From Labilibacter sediminis (GTDB lineage: Bacteria; Bacteroidota; Bacteroidia; Bacteroidales; Marinilabiliaceae), in NCBI RefSeq assembly GCF_005877885.1, contig NZ_VCHY01000006.1, forward strand, positions 62,001 through 126,000: DNA of 64,000 bases, read 5' to 3'. The translations under genes and the position numbers were made by a program. Shown here one piece after another: positions 17,486-59,693 of this stretch. Positions within the stretch are counted from its first letter, which is position 1. Every line of letters begins with the position of its first letter. The notes under the pieces are model-generated. The model was not told the DNA's origin and did no database searches. It saw only the letters and a program-made list of their open reading frames with translations.

Positions 17486-17554
17486 CATTATTATTAGTAA
17501 ATCAGATTAAATCGGCATGGCTTGTCCTAACCCGGATTAGGTAATAAAGACCAA

Positions 17555-17591
17555 CGTTCCATCAGCCTTGATATTAAAATTTAAACACATG
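17555..17591 (+). promoter_or_regulatory. Leader element before a sulfatase gene (copy D)
   Basis: CGTTCCAT (17555-17562) followed by AAATTTAAACACATG ending at the sulfatase start codon repeats the arrangement seen before 45598, 56485 and at 58080. No MKR mini-ORF is present in this copy. A small inverted repeat CCTAACCCGGATTAGG lies just upstream. Confidence 0.5.
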
Positions 17592-21141: not shown

Positions 21142-21159
21142 ATGAAACGAGCATGCTAA
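21142..21159 (+). promoter_or_regulatory. MKR mini-ORF (copy E), MKRAC
   Basis: ATGAAACGAGC, six bases after the beta-helix stop, opens a five-codon frame MKRAC. The same start occurs at 45448, 56383 and 57990. Here it lies exactly where homology to the sulfatase tail begins, so it marks a rearrangement junction. Confidence 0.45.
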
Positions 21160-22819: not shown

Positions 22820-22829
22820 AATAAAGGAT

Positions 22830-24377
22830 ATGAGTATGGAAATTTTTAGTAAAGTGATTGTTTTGTTCTTACTTGGAGCTGGTTTTATGGCTTGTAAGGA
22901 AAATGTAAATAAGCAAAATGAGCATCCAAATATTATAATGATCTATTTAGATGATTTGGGATATGGTGACTTAAGTTGTTATGGAGCCACTGAATTGCAG
23001 ACACCAAATATTGATGCCTTAGCAAAAGGAGGGGTTCGTTTTACCAACGGATATGCATCCTCTGCTACATGTACACCTAGTCGTTATGCTTTATTGACTG
23101 GAACTTATCCATGGAGAAATAAAGACGCAAAAATATTGCCGGGAACAGCTCCTTTGTTAATTAGAACTGATCAGGAAACGTTACCAAAAATGCTTAAAAA
23201 TGTAGGTTATCAAACAGCTGTTATAGGTAAGTGGCATTTAGGTTTAGGAACAGGTAAGGTAAATTGGAATCAAAGAGTATCACCTGGTCCTAACGAAGTA
23301 GGGTTTGATCATGCTTATATTATGGCAGCTACACAAGATCGTGTACCAACAGTGTATCTTGAGAATGGACTGGTGGACGGTTTGGATGAATCTGATCCGA
23401 TAGAGGTGGATTATTCAAATAATTTCAAAGGTCAGCCAACAGGGAAAGACAATCCAGAACTCTGTGAAATGATGTGGCATCATGGGCATAACAGTTCAAT
23501 AATTAATGGCATTCCGCGTATTGGCTATATGAAAGGCGGCGAGTCTGCGCGATGGAATGATACAGATATGGCGGATCATTTTTTGAATAAAGTGAAGGCA
23601 TTTTTGCAAGAACCAAAGGATAAGCCTTTCTTTCTCTATTATGCGATGCAACAGCCTCATGTGCCAAGAACACCGCATCCGCGTTTTGTTGGAAAATCGG
23701 GTAAGGGACCTCGCGGAGACGTTATTTTAGAAGCGGATTGGTGTATTGGTGAATTGATGAAAACACTGGAAGAAAATAAACTTCTTGAAAATACCCTAAT
23801 TATATTCTCAAGTGATAACGGACCTGTACTTAATGATGGCTATTGTGATAGTGCAGTTGAAAAATTAGGTATGCATAAACCTGCAGGTCCTTTGCGTGGA
23901 GGAAAATACAGCTTATATGAGGCCGGAGCAAGAGTTCCATTCATTACTTTTTGGAAAAATACGATTAAACCGGCAGTATCAGACGCATTAATATGTCAGA
24001 TGGATATTATGGCATCTGTTGCCAATTTGGTTGATGGGAAAATGACACCTACTGATAGTCAGGAACTATTAGAAGTCTTATTGGGTAAAAGTAAACAAGG
24101 AAGAGAAAGCCTTATTATTGAGGCTACTAGTAGAACGGCCTTAAGATATGGTGATTATATGCTGATACCTCCATATGAAGGTGACTCTGTGAATGAATTA
24201 GTGAATATTGAGTTAGGTAATGCGAGCAATTATCAACTATATAACTTAAGAATGGACATAGGTCAGCACGAAAACCTGGCCAACGAAGAACCAGAAATGC
24301 TTAAAGAGTTGATTGATAAATTTATTGAGGTTAGAGGCGAAGATTATGCCGAGATTTCTAAGTTGGATTTGAAATAA
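22830..24377 (+). CDS. Family S1 sulfatase, lipoprotein
   Basis: The sulfatase has a lipoprotein signal (GAGFMAC, Cys22) and the usual order: YLDDLGYGDLSCYG at 39-52, formylglycine site Cys81 in CTPSRY, GKWHLGLG, then FSSDNGPVLNDG and GGKYSLYEAGARVPF. The length is 515 residues. I prefer the Met at 22830; an in-frame ATG at 22803 would overlap the esterase gene and put a charged extension before the signal. A second Met at 22836 is equally plausible. The arrangement resembles arylsulfatase A-like and N-acetylgalactosamine-sulfatase-like members. Substrate position cannot be read from sequence. Confidence 0.92.
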   Translation: MSMEIFSKVIVLFLLGAGFMACKENVNKQNEHPNIIMIYLDDLGYGDLSCYGATELQTPNIDALAKGGVRFTNGYASSATCTPSRYALLTGTYPWRNKDAKILPGTAPLLIRTDQETLPKMLKNVGYQTAVIGKWHLGLGTGKVNWNQRVSPGPNEVGFDHAYIMAATQDRVPTVYLENGLVDGLDESDPIEVDYSNNFKGQPTGKDNPELCEMMWHHGHNSSIINGIPRIGYMKGGESARWNDTDMADHFLNKVKAFLQEPKDKPFFLYYAMQQPHVPRTPHPRFVGKSGKGPRGDVILEADWCIGELMKTLEENKLLENTLIIFSSDNGPVLNDGYCDSAVEKLGMHKPAGPLRGGKYSLYEAGARVPFITFWKNTIKPAVSDALICQMDIMASVANLVDGKMTPTDSQELLEVLLGKSKQGRESLIIEATSRTALRYGDYMLIPPYEGDSVNELVNIELGNASNYQLYNLRMDIGQHENLANEEPEMLKELIDKFIEVRGEDYAEISKLDLK

Positions 24378-45447: not shown

Positions 45448-45600
45448 ATGAAACGAACATGTAAATTTTAATCTTAAAAATTACGCACCGGGTAATGAAA
45501 TACGAAGTATTCATGAGCACCTTAAAGTGTAAAGTTATAGTGAAAAATAAAATTTCTTGAGAGTTCCATGTGGCAAATGAAAGAAAATTTTAAACACATG
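45448..45600 (+). promoter_or_regulatory. Leader module copy A: MKR mini-ORF, GAGTTCCAT, AT-rich start region
   Basis: ATGAAACGAAC at 45448 opens MKRTCKF and a stop. GAGTTCCAT follows at 45561-45569, and AAAATTTTAAACACATG runs into the start codon of the next gene at 45598. The same parts recur at 56383-56487 and 57990-58082, with partial copies at 17555 and 21142. No TAnnTTTG promoter is visible in this interval. Confidence 0.55.
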
Positions 45601-48015
45601 AAAAAATATATCTACATATTACTTTGTTTATTCTGTGTCGTAAATATAAGTGCACAGATAGACTTTTCCGGAGCAGTTTACTCTGTCAAGAGTGGTAACT
45701 GGTCTGATCCAACCCTATGGTCCGGAGGGCAGGTGCCATCAGCTAGCAATGATGTGAGAATTATGGACAATCATTCTGTTTATATTGATATTCAGGGAAG
45801 TGTTTCGGAAGAAAGGGTTACCCTTTGCCGTCATCTTAAAATTAAGCAAACAGCCCGCCTAAGTATGGGGCACGATACTGGTAATTTTGCCAAAGATTTG
45901 GTAATTAACGGAAGTATAGAGTGTCAGGGCACATTCTCGGCGGGCCGTTTACAACCCGGTAGTACTGGTGATGGTTCTTTGTACAAATACAATAGCCGTA
46001 TATACATGAACCTGCAGGATGCAACAACTTATATAACAGGTAAGGGTTATTTTCATCCGGGGACATTAAATATTTATAGTGCAAGTGGTGAAAAGGATGT
46101 ACTTATTGATTTGTATAATTTGGTGACGGATGAAAATTTTGTTGTCAAATCGGATGCACGTGTAACTGTGACAACTGACCGTTACTCTTACATTAATGTA
46201 AAAGGTACGTTAGGGGTAACCGGTAGTACTTATCAATGGAGTTCAGCTACCGCTAAGGCAGATTTACATGTGAATGGCTTAATCGTTTGTAATGATATTA
46301 GTTTGTTTACGAAAAATACGACTATCGGGGAGGGCTCTTCCATTTCCATTAATGATGGGGGTAGCATCTATACCCAAATGATTAACAACGGTAATCTGAA
46401 CAAGAAATCAGAAGCAGCCGGGTTCAATCTAACTATAGCACAGAATGGGCTATTTCGTTTAGGTGAAGGTGTTAATTTTACCAATCTGACTTTGGATAAT
46501 CCAAATTTAACGCTTGTAAACAATGGCGAAGTTCGATCTCATTATAGCGAAACGCTAACGTCTTCTTCTCAGATAACCAATTTAGTCAATCAGTATAAAC
46601 CTTCGGTAAATACTGAAAAAGAAAAGCTGCGAGATATTTTTGGAGCGTCACACATTGCCGGTTGGTATCATTTTACCGATAAACCGTTTATGACCGAGGG
46701 CTTGGATTATTATGAGGAGTTTGGTTCATCGGCCATTAAAACAACCCTGAGTGCCATTAACGGTAAGATGAACTCTGCATATCCTTTTAACCATAGTTGG
46801 AGCAATGTCAATAGAGTGGTGGAATTATTGAATGTGCCGGAGATACAAGACCTGTATAGTCGTTCTAATATTAAAACGCACACTTTTTGGGTCACCTCAA
46901 AAAACAAGGGTGATTATAAAGACGGACCCGATTTTCAGCACGCTTCCTACGAAGATGAAGAACAGCAATACTATGAACTGACCGCAAAACTGCTTCAGGA
47001 CTATGGACACCTGGATAAGACCTTTGTATACCAAAATTGGGAAGGTGACTGGATGTTAAGAGGTCAGGGGGTTTTATGGGAGAAAGATCCGTCTTTGATT
47101 CCTGATGATGTGGAATGGAATATTGCCGGTATGGCACGTATGTTCAGGGCTCGCCAACGTGGAACAGAAAGAGCACGTTATGAGTTTCCGGATGCTAAAG
47201 CAAAGGTACTGCATGGTATTGAGTTGAATAAGTTATGGATGAAAGATAATAGTGGTAATCGCTTAACCATGATGGACAACAATACCCCTTGTCTGGCAGC
47301 AGATGTGATTCCACATTGTCGTATTGACTTAGCATCCTGGTCGGCCTATGACGGTGGTTGGGAGAATAATGATTATCCTTTTCCATCATCAATGTGGTCG
47401 GGTTTGGAAATGATAAAATACTACACCACAGGAACCGGAGAATATGGTGATATGCCTGTACAGGTTGGTGAATTTGCTATCAACGAAAATGCGCCATACA
47501 CAAGCCATAGTCGCTCTCAGATTCGCACTAAGTACGATAAGTTATGTGGCTTAGCTTTGGCCATGGATTTACCCTATTTCTATCTGTGGAACCTCTATTG
47601 CTCTGGTCAACAGGGTGCACCCGATGGCTTTACCTGGCAAAAGGGAGTGGAGTATGAAACAGCATTCTTATACGAATGGATGGATGGTAAATGGCTCATT
47701 GAACCCGATGGTACATGGGGACATGCCGCAGAATTCCTGATGGAGCAGTTTGATACGACCACGAATGTTAGAAATGAAAATTTGAAGCTTAATGAACTGT
47801 TTACATATCCTAATCCTGCTAAGTCTGAGGTTCGAATTGAGGGTGTAAGCGAAATAACAGGTGTGGATATTCTGGATGAAACAGGAAGGCTGGTCAAACA
47901 CAAAGACGTTGTTATAGGTAATAAAATTGATGTAAGTGATATTCCAAGTGGATATTATATTTTAAAAATAAAAAGTAAAGAGAAAGTATTTATTGCAAAG
48001 CTAATTAAGAATTAA
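45598..48015 (+). CDS. T9SS-secreted protein with G8-like beta domain fused to the unassigned hydrolase domain (paralog 3)
   Basis: The 805-residue secreted protein starts at ATG 45598 (signal ends NISAQ). Residues about 22-260 form a beta-rich G8-like domain (GNWSDPTLWSGGQVPSASND, then NGSIECQGTF). Residues about 340-720 form the hydrolase domain with NWEGDWMLRG, GIELNKLWMK, DLASWSAYDGG and VQVGEFAINE; the final FWEMYNNE of the paralogs is replaced by LWNLYCSG. A T9SS sorting domain (YPNPAKSEVRIEG onward) ends the protein. It is likely displayed on the cell surface to act on or bind the intact glycan. Loss of the last conserved Glu could mean altered catalysis or a binding role. Confidence 0.72.
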   Translation: MKKYIYILLCLFCVVNISAQIDFSGAVYSVKSGNWSDPTLWSGGQVPSASNDVRIMDNHSVYIDIQGSVSEERVTLCRHLKIKQTARLSMGHDTGNFAKDLVINGSIECQGTFSAGRLQPGSTGDGSLYKYNSRIYMNLQDATTYITGKGYFHPGTLNIYSASGEKDVLIDLYNLVTDENFVVKSDARVTVTTDRYSYINVKGTLGVTGSTYQWSSATAKADLHVNGLIVCNDISLFTKNTTIGEGSSISINDGGSIYTQMINNGNLNKKSEAAGFNLTIAQNGLFRLGEGVNFTNLTLDNPNLTLVNNGEVRSHYSETLTSSSQITNLVNQYKPSVNTEKEKLRDIFGASHIAGWYHFTDKPFMTEGLDYYEEFGSSAIKTTLSAINGKMNSAYPFNHSWSNVNRVVELLNVPEIQDLYSRSNIKTHTFWVTSKNKGDYKDGPDFQHASYEDEEQQYYELTAKLLQDYGHLDKTFVYQNWEGDWMLRGQGVLWEKDPSLIPDDVEWNIAGMARMFRARQRGTERARYEFPDAKAKVLHGIELNKLWMKDNSGNRLTMMDNNTPCLAADVIPHCRIDLASWSAYDGGWENNDYPFPSSMWSGLEMIKYYTTGTGEYGDMPVQVGEFAINENAPYTSHSRSQIRTKYDKLCGLALAMDLPYFYLWNLYCSGQQGAPDGFTWQKGVEYETAFLYEWMDGKWLIEPDGTWGHAAEFLMEQFDTTTNVRNENLKLNELFTYPNPAKSEVRIEGVSEITGVDILDETGRLVKHKDVVIGNKIDVSDIPSGYYILKIKSKEKVFIAKLIKN

Positions 48016-48034
48016 ATCAGTAAATTATAGTGTT

Positions 48035-51000
48035 ATGAAAAAACTACTAATGTTATTAATATTCCTGGTACCACTTGGTATTTACGCACAGGAGCGATCC
48101 GTTACAGGGAAGGTTTTTGATAAAGATAATGGAGAGGTTATTCCCGGGGTAACCGTATATATAAAAGGTACCTCAACAGGAACTATTACAGGTAACAACG
48201 GAGAATTTAATTTACAGGCAAAGCCTTCAGATGTTTTGGTATTCTCTTTTATTGGGATGAAAACAAAAGAAGTGGAAGTTGGAAGTCAGACTACCTTTAA
48301 TATACAAATGGAAGGTGACATTTCAGAACTTGATGAAGTGGTGATTAGTGTGGGGTATTTTAACGTTAAGAAAAGTGATTTAACGGGTTCCGTAGCACAA
48401 GTAACTTCCAGTCAAATGGAAAAAGTACGTACCAATTCTGTTGAGCGTATGTTACAGGGGCAAGTGGCCGGTGTTGTGGTAAATGAAAATTCTGAACCAG
48501 GTGGTGGAGTGAGTATTTCTATTCGAGGTACCAATTCTATGTTGGGAGGAACCCAGCCATTGTATGTTGTTGATGGTATTCCTATTGACCCAATTCAGGA
48601 TGCTCAGGGAAATAATGGCTCTGGACAGGCACAAAGTTCATTAAGTTTCCTCAATCCAAATGATATTGAGAAAATGGAGGTGTTGAAAGATGCTGCTGCT
48701 ACAGCTATTTATGGAGCTCGTGGTGCCAATGGTGTGGTGGTAATTACAACCAAGCAAGCAGACGGTAAAAGTACAAGAGATAACCTGTTTGTAACAGTGG
48801 ATTTTGCTATGTCGGAACTGAATCAAAAAATTGATGTATTAAACGGCCCACAGTTCGAGTCATACATGAATCAACGATCAATTAACCAATTATACATTGA
48901 TATTACAAACCCTGCTCGCGATGGTCTGGTGTATGATGGAACACAGGATTTAACACCAGAAAACTTTGAAGAGTTGGATGGTTTTACCTTACCTTACCCG
49001 ACTACAACAGGTATCAATACTGACTGGCAGGATGAGGTGTACCGAAAAGCCTACTCTAAGTCGTTTAATGTGGCGTACCGGGGAGGTGACAAAAACAGTA
49101 ACCTATCCATAAGTTTAGGTTTGTCAGATAATCAAGGAGTTATTACGAATACAGATTATAAACGAGCAACCTTTAATATGAATGGTATGCGAAAAGGCTT
49201 TAACAATAAGGTATCGTTTTATTCTAAAACAAATACTTCATTCGGAAAAGGTAGAGCATCTTCAGTGGGGAATGGACAGATGTACTCTGACCGCAGTGTT
49301 GTTTCTAGTGCCTTACGTTTTCAACCAATATTTGAATTGCTTGAAGCTGATCAGGGTGACGACATCTATGCTGATTTGAACGAAGGTCAGGTGATGTCAA
49401 ATCCATATACACTTGCTAAATATGTGGAAGATGAAAAAACAGCCATCACCTTTAATCAAGCTTTATCGGTAGTAGGTAAAATAACACCACACCTAAGTGC
49501 AACAGCTAAAGGATCGTTTAATTACCAAAAGAGTTTACGTGATAATTATTATCCAACATTTACAACTCGAGGGCGTCGTAATAATGGAGAGGCATCGCAG
49601 TCATATATTCAAAATATAAAGACATATGCCGAAGCCAATCTGCATTATGTAAGAAAGTTTAACGATCATAAACTTGATGCTATTGTTGTGGGTACCTATG
49701 AAGTGAACAACATCAGGTCAATGTTTAACAAAGCCTATGGCTATGGTAGTGATTTAACTACTTATTATACTTTTGAGTCAGCAACCGATATTATGGTACC
49801 ACAAACCAGGTTTACCAGGGTAGGTTTATTGTCTGGTCTGTTTAGAGTAGGGTATAATTACAAAGGAAAATATTATATCGATGTAAATGCACGTATGGAT
49901 AGCTCCTCCAAGTTTGCCGAAAACAAAAAGAGTGCTTTCTTCCCTTCTGTTGCATTAGCGTGGAGAGCTTCTGAGGAACCTTTCCTTAAGAGTATAGAAT
50001 CAATTTCTAACCTGAAGTTAAGAATGTCTTATGGTAAAACGGGAAGTAATCCCATTGCTGCATTCCAGTCTTTAGGTGTGATGTCGCCAATTCGCTATAA
50101 CTTCAATAATCAAGTAATGGTTGGTTATTATGAGCAGAACCTGGCAAATCCAAATTTAACATGGGAAACTACTGACCAATACAATGCAGGTATAGATTTT
50201 GGTATGTTTAACTCACGTTTAAACCTTACGGTTGATGCCTATTATAAGCTAACACATGACCTGTTGCAGTTGGTTAACCTTCCGGCATCTAATGGTTATG
50301 CTACACGTGTGGATAATTTTGGAGAGGTTGAAAACAAAGGGATAGAGTTCACTATAGGCGGTGATATTATCCGCAAAAACGACTTGCAGTGGAATATCTT
50401 AGGAACCTTGAGTGTAAACAAAAATAAATTGGTTAAGCTAAATTCAAACCTTGATCACCAATTAGGTCCTGCTGTTGGTTATGATAAAACATATCCATCA
50501 ATGTTTATGGAAGGTCAACCTTTAGGTATTTTCTGGGGAGCTGAAACAAACGGTGTTTATGCTGATTGGGATGAAGCCGTTGCCAGTGGTATTAATGATG
50601 CCGCGGCCGGTGAAATTAAGTACATCAACCACTCTGTTGATTACGACGACCAAGGTAACCCGCTGGACGTTCAAACCATCAACTTTGATGATTACGTACA
50701 GATAGGAGATCCGAACCCTGATTTTACGGCTTCGATCAACAATACTTTGAACTATAAAAACTGGGATTTAAGTGTTTTGTTTACAGGACAAAAAGGAGGT
50801 GATATACTTTGGGTGGATTCATGGCCGTTAAATGCTTTAAAGAAAAGTACCAATGTAGCTACAGAAGCTTATAATGATTCTTGGAAAGCACCAATGACTG
50901 TGACACCTGTGTATGATGAAGTATCTGAAGATTACTCGTATGAAGTGGCTTATGACCCATCTGTAGGTCAAATAAATGGCGTGGCAAACCCTGCCGCTGC

Positions 51001-51280
51001 AACAGATGGCGGACAACGAGCTATTGTATCAGACCGACAAATTTATGATGGTTCATTTATCAAACTAAAAAATATAAATGTTGGTTATACCTTCAGGTTT
51101 CAAAATAAAAAGAGCCTTAGGTTGTATGCTTCGGGACAAAATTTATTTACCTGGACCAACTACCCGGGTTATGACCCGGAAGTACAAGCCTTCAATAAAG
51201 ACCCACGACGCAGAGGAATTGACTTTGGTGCATTCCCGGGGACAAGAAACTATGTATTTGGCCTTAAACTAGATTTTTAA
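48035..51280 (+). CDS. SusC-family TonB-dependent transporter (second PUL)
   Basis: The 1081-residue protein has a signal peptide ending GIYAQ, a carboxypeptidase-regulatory-like domain (SVTGKVFDKDNGEVIPGVTV), a plug with YFNVKKSDLTGSVAQVTS, LYVVDGIPI and ARGANGVVVITTKQ, and a beta-barrel ending in LKLDF. It imports oligosaccharides of the second PUL. It is 20 bases after paralog 3 and 19 before susD. Divergence from the first SusC is clear through the plug (ISVGYFNV against IGYGTVI), so the two transporters probably take different products. Confidence 0.96.
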   Translation: MKKLLMLLIFLVPLGIYAQERSVTGKVFDKDNGEVIPGVTVYIKGTSTGTITGNNGEFNLQAKPSDVLVFSFIGMKTKEVEVGSQTTFNIQMEGDISELDEVVISVGYFNVKKSDLTGSVAQVTSSQMEKVRTNSVERMLQGQVAGVVVNENSEPGGGVSISIRGTNSMLGGTQPLYVVDGIPIDPIQDAQGNNGSGQAQSSLSFLNPNDIEKMEVLKDAAATAIYGARGANGVVVITTKQADGKSTRDNLFVTVDFAMSELNQKIDVLNGPQFESYMNQRSINQLYIDITNPARDGLVYDGTQDLTPENFEELDGFTLPYPTTTGINTDWQDEVYRKAYSKSFNVAYRGGDKNSNLSISLGLSDNQGVITNTDYKRATFNMNGMRKGFNNKVSFYSKTNTSFGKGRASSVGNGQMYSDRSVVSSALRFQPIFELLEADQGDDIYADLNEGQVMSNPYTLAKYVEDEKTAITFNQALSVVGKITPHLSATAKGSFNYQKSLRDNYYPTFTTRGRRNNGEASQSYIQNIKTYAEANLHYVRKFNDHKLDAIVVGTYEVNNIRSMFNKAYGYGSDLTTYYTFESATDIMVPQTRFTRVGLLSGLFRVGYNYKGKYYIDVNARMDSSSKFAENKKSAFFPSVALAWRASEEPFLKSIESISNLKLRMSYGKTGSNPIAAFQSLGVMSPIRYNFNNQVMVGYYEQNLANPNLTWETTDQYNAGIDFGMFNSRLNLTVDAYYKLTHDLLQLVNLPASNGYATRVDNFGEVENKGIEFTIGGDIIRKNDLQWNILGTLSVNKNKLVKLNSNLDHQLGPAVGYDKTYPSMFMEGQPLGIFWGAETNGVYADWDEAVASGINDAAAGEIKYINHSVDYDDQGNPLDVQTINFDDYVQIGDPNPDFTASINNTLNYKNWDLSVLFTGQKGGDILWVDSWPLNALKKSTNVATEAYNDSWKAPMTVTPVYDEVSEDYSYEVAYDPSVGQINGVANPAAATDGGQRAIVSDRQIYDGSFIKLKNINVGYTFRFQNKKSLRLYASGQNLFTWTNYPGYDPEVQAFNKDPRRRGIDFGAFPGTRNYVFGLKLDF

Positions 51281-51298
51281 TCCGAAAAATTACAAGCA

Positions 51299-52888
51299 AT
51301 GAACAATTTAAAATATATAGCAATACTAATTCTGGGAGTAATGGTTTTTACTTCCTGTGAAGACTGGTTAGAAGAAGAGCCTAAAACCCAAATCGGAACT
51401 GATTATTTCTATCAGGATAAAGACCAGTCTTTGATGGCTTTAACAGCGGCTTATGCTCAATTGAAAACCGGGGCAGGATATTATAATCAGCAATTTTTAT
51501 CCAATGTGTATGCTTCATCTGATCAGGGGACATCTAGCTGGAAACATGGTGATTTTAATAAAGGAATATTAACATCAACTAACGGAACCTTACCAGAAAC
51601 GTGGAATCAAATATATGTGGCCATTCGTGATGCCAATAATGTGATTTACAATGTGGCTGATGTTGATATGGATGAGGAAATAAAAGCAAGAATCATTGGT
51701 GAAGCAAAGTTTTTAAGAGCCTTGCATTATTTTAACCTGGTACGTTGTTGGGGAGAAGTGCCTTTGCGCACCGAGCCTGTTCAACCGGGTGAAGAAGGTG
51801 GATTGCCCGTATCTTCACGTACAGACATCTATAATGTGATAATTAGTGACCTGAAATATGCTTCTGAGTACTGCTGGGGAAGAGCTGAAGTGCGATTGGG
51901 TGAAACAAATCATTTAGGACGTGTTACCAATGCAACTGCTCAAGCTATGTTGGCTCGTGTTTATCTTCATATTGCTTCATCTGTACGAAGTGCGTCTGAG
52001 GGAAGTGAAGGTTGTGCGCCATACGCTGAATTTGGTACAGACTTTAAAGCTTACTACGATTCTTGTAGTGTAATGTGTGATTTAGCTTTAACGCAACCAG
52101 GTTATGCATTAACTGCTTCATTAGAAGAGTGGAAAACAATCTTTGATGCTGATAAAGGAAACAATCCGGAGATGTTATTTGATATCCAGGGTTCATCAGC
52201 AACAGGACAAGGTACTGCTGTTTCTAACCTCTTTAGTCCGAGAAATGCCGGATTAAGTGGCGGAGGCTGGGGAGGTACCAATAAAATGGTAGCCGGCTTT
52301 ACACAAAACAGTGTTGATTTCTCAGATGCACGATTTGACAATGGTATCATCCATTATTATGAGGATAACACCTATCGCTATGAATTGTTACCAAACTATA
52401 ATGGCTATGCCCGTTACTTCCTGGATTCAGGAAATAGAAAAGGCTCCGTTTGGACAGTATTCACCTCGAAATTTATAGACAGTGATGCTACTACAGAATA
52501 TACCAGTCAGCAGAACTGGCATGTGATCCGTTTGGCAGATGTTTACATGATGCGTGCAGAGGCCTTGGCTGAAATTAATGAGGATCCTTCACTAGCCAAT
52601 GTAGATTTGAATCAGCTACGTACTCGTGCAGAAATGGATGAATTGGATTTTACTGGCTTAACTATGGCTGAATTTAGAGAAGCTTTATTAAGGGAAAGAG
52701 CTGCAGAATTCTTCATGGAAGGTCAGCGTTGGTTCGACCTTATACGATTGGGTGTTTATGAGGAGAAGTGTAAGATTGCTTACGACCCCAATAATCAGGG
52801 CAAGATTCAAGGTATAAGAGGACCAGAAGATTACACCTGGCCAATTCCTATTACCGAAACTGCTGCAAATGATAATATTGACGAATAA
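51299..52888 (+). CDS. SusD-family glycan-binding lipoprotein (second PUL)
   Basis: The 529-residue lipoprotein has the signal VMVFTSC followed by EDWLEEEPKTQIG. It has a SusD/RagB fold with EAKFLRALHYFNLVRCWGEVPL and C-terminal RERAAEFFMEGQRWFDLIRLG, the family signature. It forms the lid of the SusC barrel encoded upstream. The stop is 10 bases before the likely sulfatase start at 52899, so the unit continues into sulfatase genes. Confidence 0.95.
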   Translation: MNNLKYIAILILGVMVFTSCEDWLEEEPKTQIGTDYFYQDKDQSLMALTAAYAQLKTGAGYYNQQFLSNVYASSDQGTSSWKHGDFNKGILTSTNGTLPETWNQIYVAIRDANNVIYNVADVDMDEEIKARIIGEAKFLRALHYFNLVRCWGEVPLRTEPVQPGEEGGLPVSSRTDIYNVIISDLKYASEYCWGRAEVRLGETNHLGRVTNATAQAMLARVYLHIASSVRSASEGSEGCAPYAEFGTDFKAYYDSCSVMCDLALTQPGYALTASLEEWKTIFDADKGNNPEMLFDIQGSSATGQGTAVSNLFSPRNAGLSGGGWGGTNKMVAGFTQNSVDFSDARFDNGIIHYYEDNTYRYELLPNYNGYARYFLDSGNRKGSVWTVFTSKFIDSDATTEYTSQQNWHVIRLADVYMMRAEALAEINEDPSLANVDLNQLRTRAEMDELDFTGLTMAEFREALLRERAAEFFMEGQRWFDLIRLGVYEEKCKIAYDPNNQGKIQGIRGPEDYTWPIPITETAANDNIDE

Positions 52889-52898
52889 GGAAAGTAAG

Positions 52899-54752
52899 AT
52901 GTATAGATTAGTTTGTTATCTTGTTATAAGTCTGGTGTTGATGCCAGGCTTATTGCAGGCTAAAAAGAAGAAGGAGAGTGAGCGTCCTAACGTTGTGTTC
53001 ATCATTTCCGATCAGCATAAAAAAGATGCGCTTGGTTGCTATGGTGATGAATTGGTGATTTCGCCAAATATTGATGCGCTGGCCAGGGAAGGTGTTCGTT
53101 TAACCAATTGTTATGTGGCTGCACCGGTATGTGCACCAAGTAGGGCTGCACTTATTACAGGTATGTATCCATTTGGCAATGGAGCGCCTTATCACAAAGC
53201 GCCGGTTACTATGTCTAACGGAAATGTGAAGCACTTAGGTTCTGGCTTTCTGCGCGAAACGGGTTATCACGAAGGTATTGTTACGTTGGCAGAAGCATTT
53301 AGAGCCAATGACTATATCACAGCTTCACCAGGTAAAATGCATGTGCATGGCGAGTTGCAAAAGAATGTTGATGAGGATCATCAGGATGGGAATGATTTAG
53401 GATGGGATGAGATTAGTACACGTTTTTACACGCATTTCCCAGGTGGTCATTATGAAGATGAAGTGGGTGAAGATACCTACCACCGCTACCGCCAGTTCAA
53501 GGCATATCAAAAGGTATATAAAGGTGGGCCCGGTCATTTAAATGAAAAATACGAGCCAACCTTGGTAAAAAAGGATGAAGATAATTTTGACATGGTGGTA
53601 GCTCGCAAATCGGTGGAGTTTATAAAAAAGAGAGGTAAGGATGGCGAAAACTTTTTCTTACATGTAGGTTTTGAAAAGCCACACCCACCGTTTACCACTA
53701 CACAAAAGTATCTGGATATGTATAATCCTGAAGATTTTACTTTGCCAGAAACGGCTACCGAGTGGCATGAAAATGGGAAATATCCGTGGATACCGGATTG
53801 GATATTCAGCGGTTGGCCTAAGAAATACCCGGAAGCAGCAAAAAACATTATGGCTTCTTATTATGCTTGTGTAACACAGGTAGATGATATGGTGGGACGT
53901 GTTGTAAAAGCCTTAAAGGAAAATGACTTGTATGATAATACCATCATTGTTTATACTACTGATCATGGTGAGCATTTATTTGAACATGGTTTGAGAGGGA
54001 AGCATTGTATGTATGAAGATGCGGTGAATGTGCCATTTATTATCTCGTATCCCAAAAGGTTTCCAAAAAATGAGGTTAATGATATGCTGGTAAGTTTTAT
54101 CGATATCATGCCTACTTTATGTGAACTGACTGAAACTCCGGTTCCTGAAACCGCTCAGGGGATTTCAATAGTAGAAAATCTCGTTGATGGAACACGCCTG
54201 CTTAACCGTCCTGTTTTTTCAGAATTCCGCGGTGGTAATTATAAAGGCTTCAATGATGTTAAGAATTTGCCATCACGTATGATGCGTGTCGATGATTATA
54301 AGTTTATCTATACACACGGTATCATCAGTCAGCTGTATAATGTAAAAGAAGACCCGGATGAATTTAATAATCTGGTATTGGATGCAGAATACAAAGACAT
54401 GGCTCGCGATTTGTGTTTTCACACATTAGTAGATAAATCAATTTTGGAGTACCAGCCAATGGATATCTCCATTAAATATAGAACCATTAAATGGGAAGCT
54501 TTTTCGCAGGCTGATAGTTATGCGGTGTATTATGCAGCAGACAATAACCCAGGTGCGGCAACAATGATTGTAGAAGGACTGACAGAGTTATCTTATAAAG
54601 TACCTAAGAAGGGGTTTTATTGGGTGATGGCAATGCCTAAATACACCAGGACTTCACCACGATTGGGAGATGTGCCTGTATTCATGGAAGAATACACCTA
54701 TCAGTTACCAATAACAGGAGCTATTGAGTTTCTTCCTAAGAATCAGAAGTAA
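52899..54752 (+). CDS. Family S1 sulfatase with C-terminal fibronectin-like extension
   Basis: The 617-residue sulfatase is longer than its neighbours. Signal peptide ends LLQAK; ISDQHKKDALGCYGD is the metal site; the formylglycine site is Cys78 in CAPSRA; GKMHVHGE stands in the GKWHL place; TTDHGEHLFEHGLRGKH has the second active-site block. After about residue 510 a beta-rich domain follows (IKWEAFSQADSYAVYYAADN to PITGAIEFLP) that looks like a fibronectin type III-like module, possibly glycan binding. The start at 52899 is preferred; the upstream Met at 52869 would overlap susD. Close coupling to SusD suggests it acts early on imported oligosaccharides. Confidence 0.92.
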   Translation: MYRLVCYLVISLVLMPGLLQAKKKKESERPNVVFIISDQHKKDALGCYGDELVISPNIDALAREGVRLTNCYVAAPVCAPSRAALITGMYPFGNGAPYHKAPVTMSNGNVKHLGSGFLRETGYHEGIVTLAEAFRANDYITASPGKMHVHGELQKNVDEDHQDGNDLGWDEISTRFYTHFPGGHYEDEVGEDTYHRYRQFKAYQKVYKGGPGHLNEKYEPTLVKKDEDNFDMVVARKSVEFIKKRGKDGENFFLHVGFEKPHPPFTTTQKYLDMYNPEDFTLPETATEWHENGKYPWIPDWIFSGWPKKYPEAAKNIMASYYACVTQVDDMVGRVVKALKENDLYDNTIIVYTTDHGEHLFEHGLRGKHCMYEDAVNVPFIISYPKRFPKNEVNDMLVSFIDIMPTLCELTETPVPETAQGISIVENLVDGTRLLNRPVFSEFRGGNYKGFNDVKNLPSRMMRVDDYKFIYTHGIISQLYNVKEDPDEFNNLVLDAEYKDMARDLCFHTLVDKSILEYQPMDISIKYRTIKWEAFSQADSYAVYYAADNNPGAATMIVEGLTELSYKVPKKGFYWVMAMPKYTRTSPRLGDVPVFMEEYTYQLPITGAIEFLPKNQK

Positions 54753-54769
54753 TTTATAATATATAGTAT

Positions 54770-54806
54770 GCAGGCATCTATTCCGATAGGTGTCTGCTTT
54801 TTTTTT
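54770..54806 (+). terminator. Rho-independent terminator after the susCD-sulfatase unit
   Basis: GCAGGCATCTAT pairs with ATAGGTGTCTGC (two wobble-type pairs) around a four-base loop, followed by nine T. It ends the transcript of the sulfatase at 52899. Confidence 0.85.
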
Positions 54807-54854
54807 AAATAAAGAGAAATGTGTTAATCTCTGTTTTTACGAAAACTCAAAAAT

Positions 54855-54932
54855 ATGGATACTAAATTTTTAAGATACTTTGCCTTAATAGCCTTATCAT
54901 TTATTTCTACTACCATCTATAATGCAGAATAA
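54855..54932 (+). CDS. Short signal-peptide-like ORF
   Basis: ATG at 54855 opens 25 codons, MDTKFLRYFALIALSFISTT and so on to a stop at 54930-54932. It looks like a bare signal peptide with nothing behind it. It lies between a terminator and the next sulfatase start (14 bases). It may be a truncated remnant of a secreted gene or a leader peptide. Without comparative data I cannot tell. Confidence 0.35.
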   Translation: MDTKFLRYFALIALSFISTTIYNAE

Positions 54933-54945
54933 TTAAACAGTCTTT

Positions 54946-56253
54946 ATGAAACATTTTTTTTTCATTTTTATACTAATGCTAAGTGTTCCTTCCTTGGCTC
55001 AACAACCAAATATTGTCTTTATCCTTGCTGATGATCTTGGTTATGGTGACTTATCCTGTTACGGAGCAACAGACCTTCATACTCCAAATATCGATAAGCT
55101 ATGCCATGAAGGAGTTAAGTTTACCCGTGCCTATGCCAACAGTACGGTTTGCTCACCTAGTAGGGCTGCTATTCTTACCGGAGATTATCCTGACATGGTA
55201 GGTGTTCCCGGGGTTATTCGCGACATGCCGGATAATACCTGGGGGAACCTGTCCGATACGGCTGTTTTTTTGCCGGAACGCTTAAAGGCTTTGTCTTATA
55301 ATACAGCACTGATAGGAAAGTGGCACCTGGGATATCAGTCGCCCGATTTGCCTAACGATAGAGGTTTTGATTATTTCAAAGGTTTTGTGGGCGATATGAT
55401 GGACGATTACTATACCCATAAACGAGCTGGTGTCAATTGGATGAGAGAAGATAAAACTGAGATTAATCCTAAAGGACATGCAACGGATATATTCTCCAAT
55501 TGGGCAGCGGATTATATTCTTCAACATTCAAAGAATAATGCACCTTACTTCTTATTTTTAGCTTACAATGCCCCACATGATCCAATTCAGCCACCAATCG
55601 ATTGGTTAAAAAAAGTGCAGAAAAGAGAACCTACTGTCGGCTTGAAGCGTCAAAAAATGATAGCTTTTATTGAGCATCTGGATGCTGGCATTAAAAAAGT
55701 GGTGGATGCCATAGGAAAAAGTGGAGAGGCCGACAATACTATCATAGTATTTACTTCTGACAACGGAGGAGCCTTGCAATATGGAGCAAACAATGGAGCC
55801 CTCCAAGGTGGTAAAGGCGATTTGTTTGAAGGTGGTATCCGAATTCCTTGTATTGTGAACTGGGCTAAAATATTAAAGCCAAAAGTTGAAGAAGAGTCAA
55901 TGGTGTTAATGGACTTTTACCCAACACTAATAAATCTTGCAGGAGGAAAAATAAATTCACCTGTTCCATCCCGGAATATTTCTTCTATATGTAATCAGGA
56001 AAAAAATCAGGAAAATAGAACCATGGTGTTTATGCGACGCGAAGGACACCGTTTTGGAGGGCGTATTTATTATGCTATTACCGATGGAGAATATAAGTTG
56101 ATGCAAAACTCACCATTTGAACCCTATCAATTATATCAATTGAAAGATAACTCAATGATTGAAGTGCCGGTTGATATTCCCGCTAAAAGAAAAGAATTAT
56201 TAAAGAAATTAACCAAGCATATTCAGGAAACAGGTAAAAAACAATGGAGGTAA
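54946..56253 (+). CDS. Family S1 sulfatase
   Basis: The 435-residue secreted sulfatase has signal peptide MKHFFFIFILMLSVPSLAQ, metal site LADDLGYGDLSCYGATDLHT, formylglycine Cys69 in CSPSRA, GKWHLGYQ, APHDPIQPP, and FTSDNGGALQYGANNG followed by LQGGKGDLFEGGIRIP. This is the arylsulfatase A-like, shorter S1 form. No lipobox is present, so it should be periplasmic. It follows a terminator and a short signal-like ORF; no obvious promoter element is visible before it. Confidence 0.93.
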   Translation: MKHFFFIFILMLSVPSLAQQPNIVFILADDLGYGDLSCYGATDLHTPNIDKLCHEGVKFTRAYANSTVCSPSRAAILTGDYPDMVGVPGVIRDMPDNTWGNLSDTAVFLPERLKALSYNTALIGKWHLGYQSPDLPNDRGFDYFKGFVGDMMDDYYTHKRAGVNWMREDKTEINPKGHATDIFSNWAADYILQHSKNNAPYFLFLAYNAPHDPIQPPIDWLKKVQKREPTVGLKRQKMIAFIEHLDAGIKKVVDAIGKSGEADNTIIVFTSDNGGALQYGANNGALQGGKGDLFEGGIRIPCIVNWAKILKPKVEEESMVLMDFYPTLINLAGGKINSPVPSRNISSICNQEKNQENRTMVFMRREGHRFGGRIYYAITDGEYKLMQNSPFEPYQLYQLKDNSMIEVPVDIPAKRKELLKKLTKHIQETGKKQWR

Positions 56254-56283
56254 TGTTTGGGTAATGAGTGTGTTATTAGTATT

Positions 56284-56338
56284 TGAACCTATCTGACCAA
56301 TTAGTAAACCTCATTTTCATAAGCAATAAATACTTTTG
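56284..56338 (+). promoter_or_regulatory. Second-regulon site plus TAnnTTTG promoter
   Basis: TGAACCTATCTGACCAAT at 56284 contains the shared core, with the second half-site TAAACC 21 bp downstream of the first (56284/56305). TACTTTTG at 56331-56338 matches the -7 consensus. The transcript would then start near 56345 and contain the mini-ORF leader at 56383 as 5' untranslated region. Confidence 0.6.
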
Positions 56339-56382
56339 ATTTTGAAGTAAAGAATTAAATCAAAAGTTAAATAAAAATGAAT

Positions 56383-56487
56383 ATGAAACGAGCCAATAAA
56401 TTTTAATGCTGAAATTGAAAATAAGATGCATGAAAATATTTCTGGCGAGTTCCATCTGACATTTGAAATCTAAATTTAATACAGATG
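56383..56487 (+). promoter_or_regulatory. Leader module copy B: MKR mini-ORF, GAGTTCCAT, start region
   Basis: ATGAAACGAGCC at 56383 opens MKRANKF and a stop. GAGTTCCAT lies at 56447-56455 and TAAATTTAATACAGATG runs into the start of the beta-helix gene at 56485. It stands about 45 bases after the TAnnTTTG promoter element, so it is probably transcribed as leader RNA. Confidence 0.6.
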
Positions 56488-57972
56488 AAAAGAACGTTTA
56501 CTCTACTAGTATTGGCAATGGCAATTGGTACTGCTTTTGCACAAACCGTAAAAATCGGTAGTACATCTTATACAACAATTTCAGAAGCAATTACTGCGGC
56601 GGTTGATAATGATGTGATTGAAATTACAGGTGTTCATACCGAATCGATTACAATTGATAAAAACATCACTTTACGTGGAACAGATCCTGCCACTGATATT
56701 ATTCAGGCAGCTGCCGATCAGGCTTCAGCAACATCACGTGTCGTCTATGTTGACGGACAGGGCGGAGCCTTAACTGTTACCATTGAAAATTTGACATTCA
56801 GAAACGGAAACGCAACTGATCATGGTGGAGGCATTTTTGCTGATAAAGTAACCGGATTATTGACACTTGAGAATGTGACAATAGACAACAGTACGACTAC
56901 CAAAAATGGCGGAGGAATGAGCACAGGTGGTTCTAATGTCAATATAAATAATTGCACCATTAAGAATAATTCATCGACGTTGACAGGTGGTGGACTGCAT
57001 ATTGTGCCAAACAATGGTGCGGCAATTGATGCAGTTGTTAATGTTAGGAATTCATTAATCACTAATAATCAAAGTACTTCAAAAACCGGTGGTGGATTTA
57101 TCGTAAATGGTAATCATCAGTATGGTGATAAATATACTATCACGGCTAACTTCGAAAATGTAACAATTACATCCAATTTTGCCGCAGTTTCTGGTGGAGC
57201 AGGACAGACTTTAGGTGTGGATCATGTAGCAGGAGGTAGTGAGTCTGTTACCATAGGCGATACAAACACTAGCCTTACCATGGTGCATTGTACTGTTGCT
57301 TATAATACTTGTGATGATATTGGCAAAGCGGGGCTTGCCTTTGCAAATGGCGCTGCTACAACTGGTCCTCACTTTTACTTATACAATTCAATTGTTGTAA
57401 GTGATGACGATGTAGCCAATAAGGCGCTGAACTTTGCTGCATGTAATCCTCATGATATTATCAATAACATGCTTGGAGGATTAAATGCTTTTCCGACTAG
57501 TCAGGATGGTAACAACAATGCAAAAGGGAAAACAGCTACATTCGCTGGTATTGCAACTGTTTTAACAGATGAAGGCGGTAAAGTAAAGGTATTGGCACTA
57601 GGAGATGGAGCAAATTCAGTCGATTACTGCACAACTGCAACAGGTATAACCTTGCCATCAACGGATGCCAGAACTTATTCACGTGATGCTACTCCAGATG
57701 CTGGTGCATACGAATATGCTGGTCTTCCAACAAGTGTTGGAAAAATTACTGCTTTAGAAGTGAGCATTAGTCCTAATCCGGCCAATGATTACTTTAGAGT
57801 AATAGGTAAGGATCAGGTAGTTAATATTAATATTTATTCATTAGATGGTACACTTGTTAAGTCGGTAACAAATTCTGCACAAGTAGATGTATCAGGATTA
57901 ATGAATGGCGTTTATCTTGTACAGGTAACAGGAGAAAATGGTGAAACCATTAAAAAGTTAGTAGTTAAATAG
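56485..57972 (+). CDS. T9SS-sorted Pmp-like beta-helix protein
   Basis: The 495-residue secreted protein has signal peptide MKRTFTLLVLAMAIGTAFAQ. Residues about 20-410 form a right-handed beta-helix with Asn/Gly-rich coils (GNATDHGGGIF, KNGGGMSTGG, STLTGGGLHI), a pattern shared with polymorphic outer-membrane and DUF1565-type surface proteins. A T9SS type A domain (SISPNPANDYFRVIG to GETIKKLVVK) closes it. No acidic catalytic cluster like that of the GH110-like group is seen. It could be a surface glycan-binding protein or a lyase-like beta-helix; I keep the function open. It is expressed from the promoter at 56331 with the leader B. Confidence 0.75.
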   Translation: MKRTFTLLVLAMAIGTAFAQTVKIGSTSYTTISEAITAAVDNDVIEITGVHTESITIDKNITLRGTDPATDIIQAAADQASATSRVVYVDGQGGALTVTIENLTFRNGNATDHGGGIFADKVTGLLTLENVTIDNSTTTKNGGGMSTGGSNVNINNCTIKNNSSTLTGGGLHIVPNNGAAIDAVVNVRNSLITNNQSTSKTGGGFIVNGNHQYGDKYTITANFENVTITSNFAAVSGGAGQTLGVDHVAGGSESVTIGDTNTSLTMVHCTVAYNTCDDIGKAGLAFANGAATTGPHFYLYNSIVVSDDDVANKALNFAACNPHDIINNMLGGLNAFPTSQDGNNNAKGKTATFAGIATVLTDEGGKVKVLALGDGANSVDYCTTATGITLPSTDARTYSRDATPDAGAYEYAGLPTSVGKITALEVSISPNPANDYFRVIGKDQVVNINIYSLDGTLVKSVTNSAQVDVSGLMNGVYLVQVTGENGETIKKLVVK

Positions 57973-57989
57973 TCTGGTTTATAAATATT

Positions 57990-58082
57990 ATGAAACGAGC
58001 CATAAGAGGAGTTCTCTCACACTGGTAAATGACTAGGTTGGCGAGTTCCATGTTTCAATTAAAAGAAAAATTTAAACACATG
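57990..58082 (+). promoter_or_regulatory. Leader module copy C: MKR mini-ORF, GAGTTCCAT, false start
   Basis: ATGAAACGAGCC at 57990 opens MKRAIRGVLSHW and a stop. GAGTTCCAT follows at 58043-58051, then AAATTTAAACACATG ends at 58082. The ATG there begins only MKAL and a stop, inside a terminator hairpin. The module thus has no proper gene attached; the sulfatase start is 46 bases further. Confidence 0.6.
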
Positions 58083-58117
58083 AAAGCACTTTGACCTAGA
58101 TTGAAGTGCTTTTTTAA
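58083..58117 (+). terminator. Rho-independent terminator or attenuator before a sulfatase gene
   Basis: AAAGCACTT at 58083-58091 pairs perfectly with AAGTGCTTT at 58104-58112 around a 12-base loop, followed by TTTT. It separates leader copy C from the sulfatase start at 58128. Confidence 0.8.
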
Positions 58118-58127
58118 TTCAGTTCAT

Positions 58128-59693
58128 ATGCAAAGGTATTTTTTTCTATTCGGTATAATTCTTTCATTAAATCTATTATCCGGATGTAATAAAAAAGTAG
58201 ACAAGCCCAATATTGTTTTTATTATGACCGATGATCATGCCAGTCATGCAATATCGGCTTATGGAGGTATCTATAGCAATATTGCACCAACTCCAAATAT
58301 TGATCGCCTTGCCAATGAAGGGGTGATGCTGAGTAACGTTTTTTGTACAAATGCCATTTGTGGTCCTTCTCGGGCGGCTATCTTAACCGGTAAATACAGT
58401 CATATTAACGGTTACATGAAGAACTATAAAGGAGGACGTTTCGACAATTCCCAGTGGACCTTTCCGAAAGAATTGCAGGCCAGTGGTTATGAAACAGCTA
58501 TGGTTGGCAAGTGGCACCTGGCATCTGAACCAACAGGTTTTAATTACTATAAATACCATGTAGCACGAGGTGAGCAGGGATTTTACTGGAATCCAATTTA
58601 CAACGATAATGGAGATACTATTCAGGTGCAAGGATATGCCACTAACTTAACCACTGATTTTGCTTTAGACTGGTTGGAAGAAAGAAACGAGAGTAATCCG
58701 TTTTGTTTAATGTTGCAATTTAAAGCACCTCATCGACCGTGGCAACCTGACTCTATTTATAATAACCTTTTTGAAGATATTGAAATACCTTACCCTTCAA
58801 CATTTAATGATGAATACAAAGGCAGAGAGCTGACAGCTGGTAATACAGAAATGACCATGAATGATTTCAGTCGTGAAGATATGAAGTTAACGCCTCCCGA
58901 TACCTTAAGCGGTAAGAAGCTCAAAAAATGGATCAATTATGGTATAAACCGAGATGAAAATGTGATTCCTGTAGAGGGTATGGATGAAGAAACAGCACGC
59001 AAGTGGAAATACCAGCGTTACATGAAAGATTATTTGGCCACCATACGTTCAGTCGACGATAATATAGGTAAAGTATTAGCATACCTCGATGATAAGGGAC
59101 TAACAGAGAATACTATTGTTATATATACATCAGATCAGGGTTTCTTCTTAGGTGACCATGGTTGGTTCGACAAACGTTTTATGTACGAACAGGCATTAAG
59201 AATGCCATTTTTGGTTCGTTACCCCAAGGCCATAAAAGCAGGTAGTGTGTGTGATGATATTATGACCAATATAGACTTTGCGCCAACGATCCTGGATATG
59301 ACAGGAGTAACTGCTCCTGAGGATGTGCAAGGGAATAGTTTCTTTGCCAATTTAAAGGGGCAAACCCCGCATAACTGGCGTCAATCCATGTACTATCATT
59401 ATTACGAATATCCTTTCTGGCACCATGTGCAACCTCACTATGGAATTCGCAACCAGCGCTATAAACTCATTTATTTTTATTATGATGTGGATGTGTGGGA
59501 GTTTTATGATTTGGAAAGTGATCCTGATGAATTAAACAACCTTATAGAATCTTCTATGCATCAGGACATAATCAACGAATTGAAAGTTGAGTTAAGGCTG
59601 ATGATGAACCATTATGGTAATGAATTCAGTATTGAGGATCTGAGAAAAGTTTCGGATATGGATTTTGGGGGGCTGGAATCAAATAAACATTAA
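58128..59693 (+). CDS. Family S1 sulfatase, lipoprotein
   Basis: The 521-residue sulfatase has a lipoprotein signal (LNLLSGC, Cys20), metal site MTDDHASHAISAYGG, formylglycine site Cys78 in CGPSRA, GKWHLASEPTGF, APHRPWQPD and YTSDQGFFLGDHGWFDKRF. The form resembles the iduronate-2-sulfatase/6-O-sulfatase-like S1 branch. The start at ATG 58128 is chosen because an upstream in-frame start at 58101 lies inside the terminator hairpin. It is the last gene of the PUL. Confidence 0.93.
   Translation: MQRYFFLFGIILSLNLLSGCNKKVDKPNIVFIMTDDHASHAISAYGGIYSNIAPTPNIDRLANEGVMLSNVFCTNAICGPSRAAILTGKYSHINGYMKNYKGGRFDNSQWTFPKELQASGYETAMVGKWHLASEPTGFNYYKYHVARGEQGFYWNPIYNDNGDTIQVQGYATNLTTDFALDWLEERNESNPFCLMLQFKAPHRPWQPDSIYNNLFEDIEIPYPSTFNDEYKGRELTAGNTEMTMNDFSREDMKLTPPDTLSGKKLKKWINYGINRDENVIPVEGMDEETARKWKYQRYMKDYLATIRSVDDNIGKVLAYLDDKGLTENTIVIYTSDQGFFLGDHGWFDKRFMYEQALRMPFLVRYPKAIKAGSVCDDIMTNIDFAPTILDMTGVTAPEDVQGNSFFANLKGQTPHNWRQSMYYHYYEYPFWHHVQPHYGIRNQRYKLIYFYYDVDVWEFYDLESDPDELNNLIESSMHQDIINELKVELRLMMNHYGNEFSIEDLRKVSDMDFGGLESNKH

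Follow-up and report, generated by a model that had tools for sequence, protein, structure and literature searches.

A short dispersed DNA element, probably mobile and most often seated at start codons, in Labilibacter sediminis and other Bacteroidota

Several described systems share features with the short repeat reported here from Labilibacter sediminis, which occurs in a stretch of 64,000 nucleotides (contig NZ_VCHY01000006.1, positions 62,001 to 126,000; hereafter, the window) and which very probably is a non-coding, non-autonomous mobile DNA element that inserts scarlessly, usually at start codons. Miniature inverted-repeat transposable elements (MITEs) of DDE transposases carry terminal inverted repeats and are flanked by a target-site duplication. 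Our element departs from these, since its ends, GAAACGA... and ...CANAT, are not inverted repeats and no duplication beyond an ambiguous GAA(A) is seen. Integron attC sites, whose boxes follow the consensus RYYYAAC/GTTRRRY, resemble it in that outer boxes pair to form a hairpin whose terminal loop varies; in the element, however, the boxes read ATGAAAC/GTTCCAT, the crossover lies in GAA, and the copies are dispersed without any cassette array. IS91 inserts without target duplication, as the element appears to do, and genes for the Y2 HUH transposases of the IS91/ISCR type are commoner in element-bearing relatives. In turn, the structured RNA leaders of Bacteroidota share its 5' leader position and a start codon held in a helix, whereas the element seems to be mobile, is tied to no gene class recognizable by eye and has no counterpart in Rfam, a search of which with the window and eight loci gave only weak unrelated matches, none of them at an element.

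REP and REPIN sequences (TnpA-REP, RAYT) are likewise short, dispersed, intergenic, non-coding hairpins of high copy number with a guide at the hairpin foot. Unlike them, the element is longer, sits mostly exactly at start codons, has a right end that covaries with the guide, and showed no linked RAYT gene; its guide, GTTCCATNTG, does not conform to the GT[AG]G of REP guides given in PMC6006769. The IS200/IS605 elements and their MITE-like derivatives share with it the lack of target duplication, a fixed short target, a subterminal hairpin and guide-end pairing, although the last is only compatible with the data at the left end, which is invariant, and covaries at the right. According to the same paper, IS200/IS605 guides lie 5' of the hairpin foot and set cleavage via base interactions with a flanking or terminal tetranucleotide. 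The element differs in having one hairpin, one guide for both ends, no internal tnpA and no association with Y1 transposases among 31 genomes (its own, G000, and 30 relatives). On sequence grounds, we regard it as a widespread family of small non-autonomous elements akin to REP sequences and MITEs, distinguished by start-codon placement, delivery of a start region, and covarying guide and end. We found no description of it in the literature searched, the coverage of which leaves out preprints and most subscription papers.

The inserted unit consists of GAAACGA, a variable hairpin, GAGTTCCATNTG, an A-rich stretch and CAN'AT, and it parts a host ATGAA behind the AT. Read from the sequence, the gene's former start region and AT are left upstream, where they now open a mini open reading frame (ORF) beginning with MKR or MKQ, and the A-rich 3' part of the element, its CANAT and the host GAA form a new start region and ATG. 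As the element supplies the AT of this ATG, the host protein is unchanged. In the folded RNA examples, the new start codon is predicted to lie in a short helix. We read the mini-peptides as probable by-products of insertion; the peptide-coupled control envisaged in an earlier note on the window does not agree with their variation in sequence and length after MKR/MKQ.

In the window, the motif ATGAAACGARC is present at 21142, 45448, 56383 and 57990, exactly as the earlier note had it and well above chance (0.06 occurrences expected; none of 100 shuffles reaches four). We found GAGTTCCAT four times as well, against 0.49 expected, at 45561, 56447 and 58043, which are module sites, and at 23932 within the ORF 22803-24377. 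The third motif, AAATTTAAACACATG, has exact matches at 17577 and 58068 and a match with one mismatch at 45586; it is informative in context only, and with three mismatches allowed its 11 matches in the window show no enrichment over the 9.2 expected by chance. A covariance model, R1, built from an alignment (A1) of 27 copies, was significant in the window solely at 45448, 56383 and 57990 (E 4e-14 to 3e-13, these three copies being members of the training set), and the module claimed at these positions is indeed one element.

All three copies lie on the plus strand. Copy 1 (45450-45599, with ends set by the derived junction; R1 match 45448-45603, 85.6 bits, E 5.6e-14) is a long form of 150 nt, reading GAAACGAAC...guide GAGTTCCATGTG (45561-45572)...CACAT. 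It is preceded by the host AT at 45448-45449 and closed by the start codon of its host gene (45598-48012), an 805-aa ORF with a C-terminal sorting domain of the type IX secretion system (T9SS; Por_Secre_tail). Copy 2 (56385-56486, 102 nt; R1 match 56383-56490, 82.1 bits, E 2.6e-13) has the guide GAGTTCCATCTG (56447-56458) and the right end CAGAT, a change compensatory to the GTG/CAC of copy 1, and its host gene is a 495-aa ORF with the same domain (56485-57969). Copy 3 (57992-58081, 90 nt; R1 match 57990-58085, 86.3 bits, E 4.1e-14), with the guide GAGTTCCATGTT (58043-58054) and the right end CACAT, has as its target an ATGAAA past the stop codon of the 495-aa ORF, i.e., no gene start. The ATG closing this copy opens MKAL only, and the following sulfatase ORF (58128-59690, plus strand; Sulfatase 5.9e-54, SGSH_C 1.9e-63) has its likely ATG about 46 nt past the element. 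Just past the ATG of copy 3, a hairpin with a T run can be seen by eye, unlisted in a terminator scan restricted to loops of 3-8. The long form with an extra hairpin insert holding AATACGAAGTATT is common to the window (45500-45550) and two other loci, L003 and L005.

Throughout the genome (6.36 Mb in 372 contigs), we counted 86 occurrences of ATGAAACGARC and 8 of its reversed control, and the pieces keep a fixed order and position in the aligned copies rather than being randomly distributed, in line with the earlier note. The genome-wide search with R1 gave 149 matches at E<=1, of which the three weakest were dropped; as 150 candidates were scored, the 146 used are a lower bound, and the genome carries at least 146 elements. 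Guide sites number 65 in G000, 113 in G004, and 39 and 51 in two further genomes, against 0, 1, 0 and 0 in the control. In the common layout, the left end GAAACGA(G/A/C)C leads into a stem that varies in length and sequence; then come GAGTTCCAT and NTG (together the guide GAGTTCCATNTG), an A-rich stretch, CAN'AT and the host GAA. Unit lengths range from 41 to 150 nt, with 106 of the 146 at 88-102 nt. In tandem arrays, copies abut, the right end of one joining the left end of its successor. At about 51 nt, two minimal copies (L018:1455-1511, L019:1455-1511) have a TTT apex and retain the left end, guide and right end. In 12 of the 146 elements, of both subtypes, the GTTCC and CAT of the guide are separated by a palindrome (about 19-20 nt; e.g., CAGCCTGTCGGCTGACAGG; L178, L091, L129, L074, L170, L158, L134, L120, L105, L166, L109, L094); one more element of the same genome, L126, has a variant beside it, and L447 of the congener G006 shows the same. 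This is probably a second-order hairpin insertion.

The GAAAC of the left end is able to pair with GTTC(C). In A1 (n=27), two column pairs change on both sides, namely 10/124, beside a GA/GA step (G-C 9, A-U 4, C-G 2 and G-U 1, with 11 unpaired), and 12/122 (A-U 17, C-G 9, U-G 1); the left helix has 16 covarying cells against 6.2 in shuffles. The clearest covariation is that of the guide NTG with the right end CAN'. Among 114 copies (the 32 elements of 146 without a readable guide or ATG being excluded), the commonest combinations are GTG/CAC (29), GCA/CGC (25), CTG/CAG (23) and ATG/CAT (10). With a further 13 elements that follow another element set aside, 90 and 92 of 101 pair at the first two positions, compared with 45 and 56 after shuffling, and none of 2000 shuffles equals the observed value. 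The three host bases before the left end show no such excess in the same 101 copies (19, 49 and 31 paired versus 28, 52 and 28 shuffled). An independent set from public genome records, collected with a pattern that omitted the right end, gave the same result: after exclusion of 8 of 114 without ATGA in the tail, 95 of 106 show pairing of guide and right end, where shuffles average 34 and reach 56 at most. In this set, 89 of the 106 have an ORF opened at that ATG and 17 do not.

We found that the element is present in 18 of the 30 relatives, and, in a sample of the phylum searched with stricter filters (E<=1e-5), in 7 of 148 genomes including its own. A pattern scan of public genomes returned at least 112 stretches; among the 80 matches listed, nearly all are labelled Bacteroidota, from several orders. 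Identical copies occur at unrelated places: G006 has six identical 90-nt copies before six different ORFs, and in G004 one 100-nt copy recurs unchanged at two unrelated places and has a local duplicate besides. Empty sites were found as well. Among nine congeners (its own genome included), the start of a hisH-like gene is filled in G000 and G008, empty in six and unread in G004, the G008 copy at the same codon being decayed and different-looking by eye; the start of a 361-aa korA-like gene is filled in G000 only and empty in the other eight.

The junction is best resolved in G009, a genome that has a 400-mer in common with Breznakibacter xylanolyticus DSM 6779. A repeat of about 315 bp (GGCTCTATGTCGAATCCTGTGGG...AAGCCGCCTTCGGAAAATGGCG...) is scattered through it; of at least 28 copies of this repeat, 22 are empty and six filled (loci of the repeat include L437-L446, L421, L424-L426, L430 and L434). 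The copies at L417, which lies at a contig edge, and L419, which has a second, decayed copy after it, are not in the filled count. Of the empty sites, 20 read exactly CTAAGCCGCCTTCG^GAAAATGG and two are one base off, and the six filled sites carry [GAAACGAGCC...CAGAT] at the caret, two of them about one base off in the flank. The filled repeats may descend from one insertion spread with the repeat. Filled and empty sites thus differ by an insertion beside a fixed short sequence, without target duplication beyond the ambiguous shared GAA(A), which means that the dinucleotide left of GAAAC is the host's and the right-end AT is the element's. Two copies away from gene starts, bounded by TT at the left and ending in CACAT, agree in that the left dinucleotide follows the host, and the same end rule holds in two RAYT-like pseudogenes of G009, each broken by an antisense element at TT^GAAA (L378:2853-2946 and 5566-5659). 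Comparison of sites therefore lends good support to mobility and to the proposed junction, and the half of the earlier proposal that spoke of a mobile leader cassette agrees with the identical dispersed copies, the empty sites and the scarless junction.

As for placement, the closing triplet is ATG in 139 of the 146 elements; 15 elements are directly succeeded by another, and for 95 a long ORF begins at precisely this ATG. With arrays taken as the unit, 95 of 131 end exactly at an ORF start codon (an ORF of at least 60 aa, or one open to the end of the fetched stretch), or 101 after six were reassigned by eye. The second codon after the closing ATG is AAA in 107 and AAT in 10 of the 124 elements without a following element, so the preferred site is ATGAA. 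In the 688 kb fetched, a sample centred on elements with mechanically called ORFs, ATGAA outside elements occurs at 187 starts, at 412 intergenic non-starts, and in coding DNA 1524 times in sense and 817 in antisense. Placement at starts (73%) exceeds the 39% predicted from non-coding ATGAA availability (binomial p 4e-15); starts are thus over-represented among tolerable sites. The left flank is A-rich at -13 to -10, as in 99 ordinary ATGAA genes, from which it differs in T at -7 (0.58 versus 0.38), A at -2 (0.69 versus 0.45) and A at -1 (0.13 versus 0.35). Non-start arrays have AT before GAA in 29 of 36 cases and likewise favour T at -7 and A at -2, which points to a sequence preference as well as selection. 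The downstream genes, judged by eye from N-termini only, are varied and many look ordinary-metabolic, including what we take to be HisH-, thiolase-, RidA-, methylglyoxal-synthase-, sulfatase- and SusD-like proteins.

The excess of start codons over ATGAA availability bears on whether the element, mobile at first, was then partly domesticated, with copies at start codons retained since their start region or hairpin tunes expression. We consider this a serious possibility, somewhat short of even. The 3' ends of the elements are A-rich upstream of the ATG, and PMC6847099 names A at -3, -6, -12 and -13 as promoting initiation in Flavobacterium johnsoniae; of these, the element offers A at -6 and near -12, whereas its -3 position is mostly C. 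The start-codon excess could also be explained by target preference, as T at -7 and A at -2 are found at non-starts too, or by purging elsewhere.

Returning to the reading of a mobile element, movement would be effected by an enzyme acting in trans on the hairpin and guide. Pairing is possible between the GTTC of the guide and GAAC/GAAA at either end, and between CATNTG and the right end. On the other strand, the order is host TTTC^[AT N TG - linker - guide - hairpin - GTTTC]^ host, a layout like that of single-strand transposition of the IS200/IS605 kind. By this analogy, an HUH single-strand mechanism may be entertained, tentatively.

A number of results weigh against mobility as outlined above. 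The evidence for it comes from comparison of different species. At the G009 junction, the host has CG, not AT, before GAA, and the CAT of the guide was thus in no need of a matching AT in the host, so that only GAA(A) is a firm target requirement and the preference for ATG or AT is statistical; 8 of the 95 start arrays lack AT on the left, partly by decay. In A1, left-helix pairs changed on both sides show no excess (2 versus 1.9 shuffled), nor does the third guide position in the 101 copies (63 paired versus 62). The bottom-strand DNA is the more stable in 28 of 100, which does not single out an active strand. No mobilising enzyme was found among the Y1 and Y2 HUH transposases examined in the 31 genomes. 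Y1 (PF01797) shows no co-occurrence, being found in 17 of the 19 genomes with elements and in 10 of the 12 without, though Y1 genes may have been lost after the element spread, and in G004, with its many guide sites and its identical copy at unrelated places, all four Y1 matches are partial, two with stops. The IS200-like TnpA of L108, used as query, had no match in 9 of the 31 genomes, including the element-bearing G004, G014, G015 and G018. As for Y2, G000 has no match and the right ends of the G004 IS91-like element differ from ours, for which reasons we rejected it as mobiliser. An autonomous copy with a gene between the ends was absent from the 50 of 65 G000 guide sites examined, of which 49 lie in known elements and one is a minimal copy.

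Y2 genes (PF04986) were nevertheless found in 13 of 19 element-bearing versus 2 of 12 element-free genomes (p 0.009). The eight IS91-like elements of G004 (L467-L474), which are nearly identical and contain a gene for a Y2 transposase, have right ends reading ...AAAATCCTTATAAGTT, unlike the element; this applies to one genome, in which only the right ends were resolved. Upstream of and adjoining this Y2 gene is a reading frame that looks tyrosine recombinase-like by eye.

Mobilisation by a Y1 HUH transposase, either IS200-like or RAYT, would make the element REP-like with a long guide, an option to be held with reserve. PMC6006769 sets out IS200/IS605 rules that the part order (end site, linker, guide, hairpin, end site) fits, and also reports that subclass 1.2, recognized by the motif Y---Q--HH, lacks typical IS ends and that subclass 2.6 of Bacteroidetes is flanked by atypical structures. 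Insertion beside a fixed short target without duplication points the same way. Against this stand the missing co-occurrence, the partial G004 genes and the rarity of R1 matches near Y1 loci (one in 30 loci, and four significant ones confined to 2 of another 20); in G009, both matches break up RAYT genes. We observed two genes for IS200-like TnpA (Pfam Y1_Tnp) less than 2 kb from an element (L108:7925-8377 and L170:4167-4718), both with the Y---Q--HH motif. A guide-directed element, in which one guide reads both its own joint and the host ATGAA and the element lands on start codons and rebuilds them via an enzyme outside the known single-strand transposases examined, seems to us rather doubtful.

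Less likely still is a cis-acting RNA leader (riboswitch, attenuator or thermosensor), in which CAUNUG:CANAUG would hide the start codon in alternation with AUGAAAC:GUUCCAU. The start codon does lie within a covarying helix, the two helices share CAU and are mutually exclusive, the RNA folds at -20.7 kcal/mol versus -12.2 for mononucleotide shuffles (n=100), and start sites are in excess. However, the downstream genes look unrelated, including the six with identical copies in G006, and presence is species-specific, the leader being kept at only two of nine (one genome unread) and one of nine congeners at the two orthologous starts; nor is any element matched in Rfam. Of the 30 arrays off gene starts, 8 are antisense to both neighbours, which also led us to reject insertion at the RNA level. 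The guide/right-end pairing is retained in 19 of 21 copies off gene starts versus 67 of 81 at starts; being equal with or without a gene after it, it would be a property of the element itself and gives no evidence of gene control. The RNA structure considered in the earlier note thus stands insofar as the covariation fits an RNA or single-stranded DNA structure, and not as a regulator. Chance or composition can practically be dismissed: although the genome is AT-rich and the third motif unenriched when three mismatches are allowed, the window, genome and model counts lie far above controls.

If the proposed insertion at start codons is true, its sparing of the protein would explain how about 150 copies came to stand before ordinary genes. 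Upstream MKR ORFs and start-codon hairpins among the 5' leaders and small ORFs of Bacteroidota can then have arisen by insertion. With the guide and ends covarying, the recognition rule is open to testing, and filled and empty alleles amount to natural experiments on how translation starts in a phylum that lacks Shine-Dalgarno sequences. Should the enzyme be new, it might serve to insert leaders precisely.

Placement before secreted proteins, another suggestion of the earlier note, shows only as a weak tendency, hydrophobic N-termini (called by a crude score) being found in 64 of 84 element genes versus 70 of 115 other ATGAA-start ORFs (Fisher p 0.03). The fourth start region claimed before the sulfatase ORF at 17589 (17544-17594, plus strand, right-end-like) is not significant as an element and is indistinguishable by R1 from an ordinary start region (E 1.9 over the window, 0.0088 on 301 bases; 14.8 bits with filters off). 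At 21142, the motif belongs to a left-end remnant of 11 nt (ATGAAACGAGC, 21142-21152, plus strand) and not to a module copy; the 77-aa ORF that follows it resembles, by eye, a sulfatase C-terminus (Pfam E 0.014, below the cut-off).

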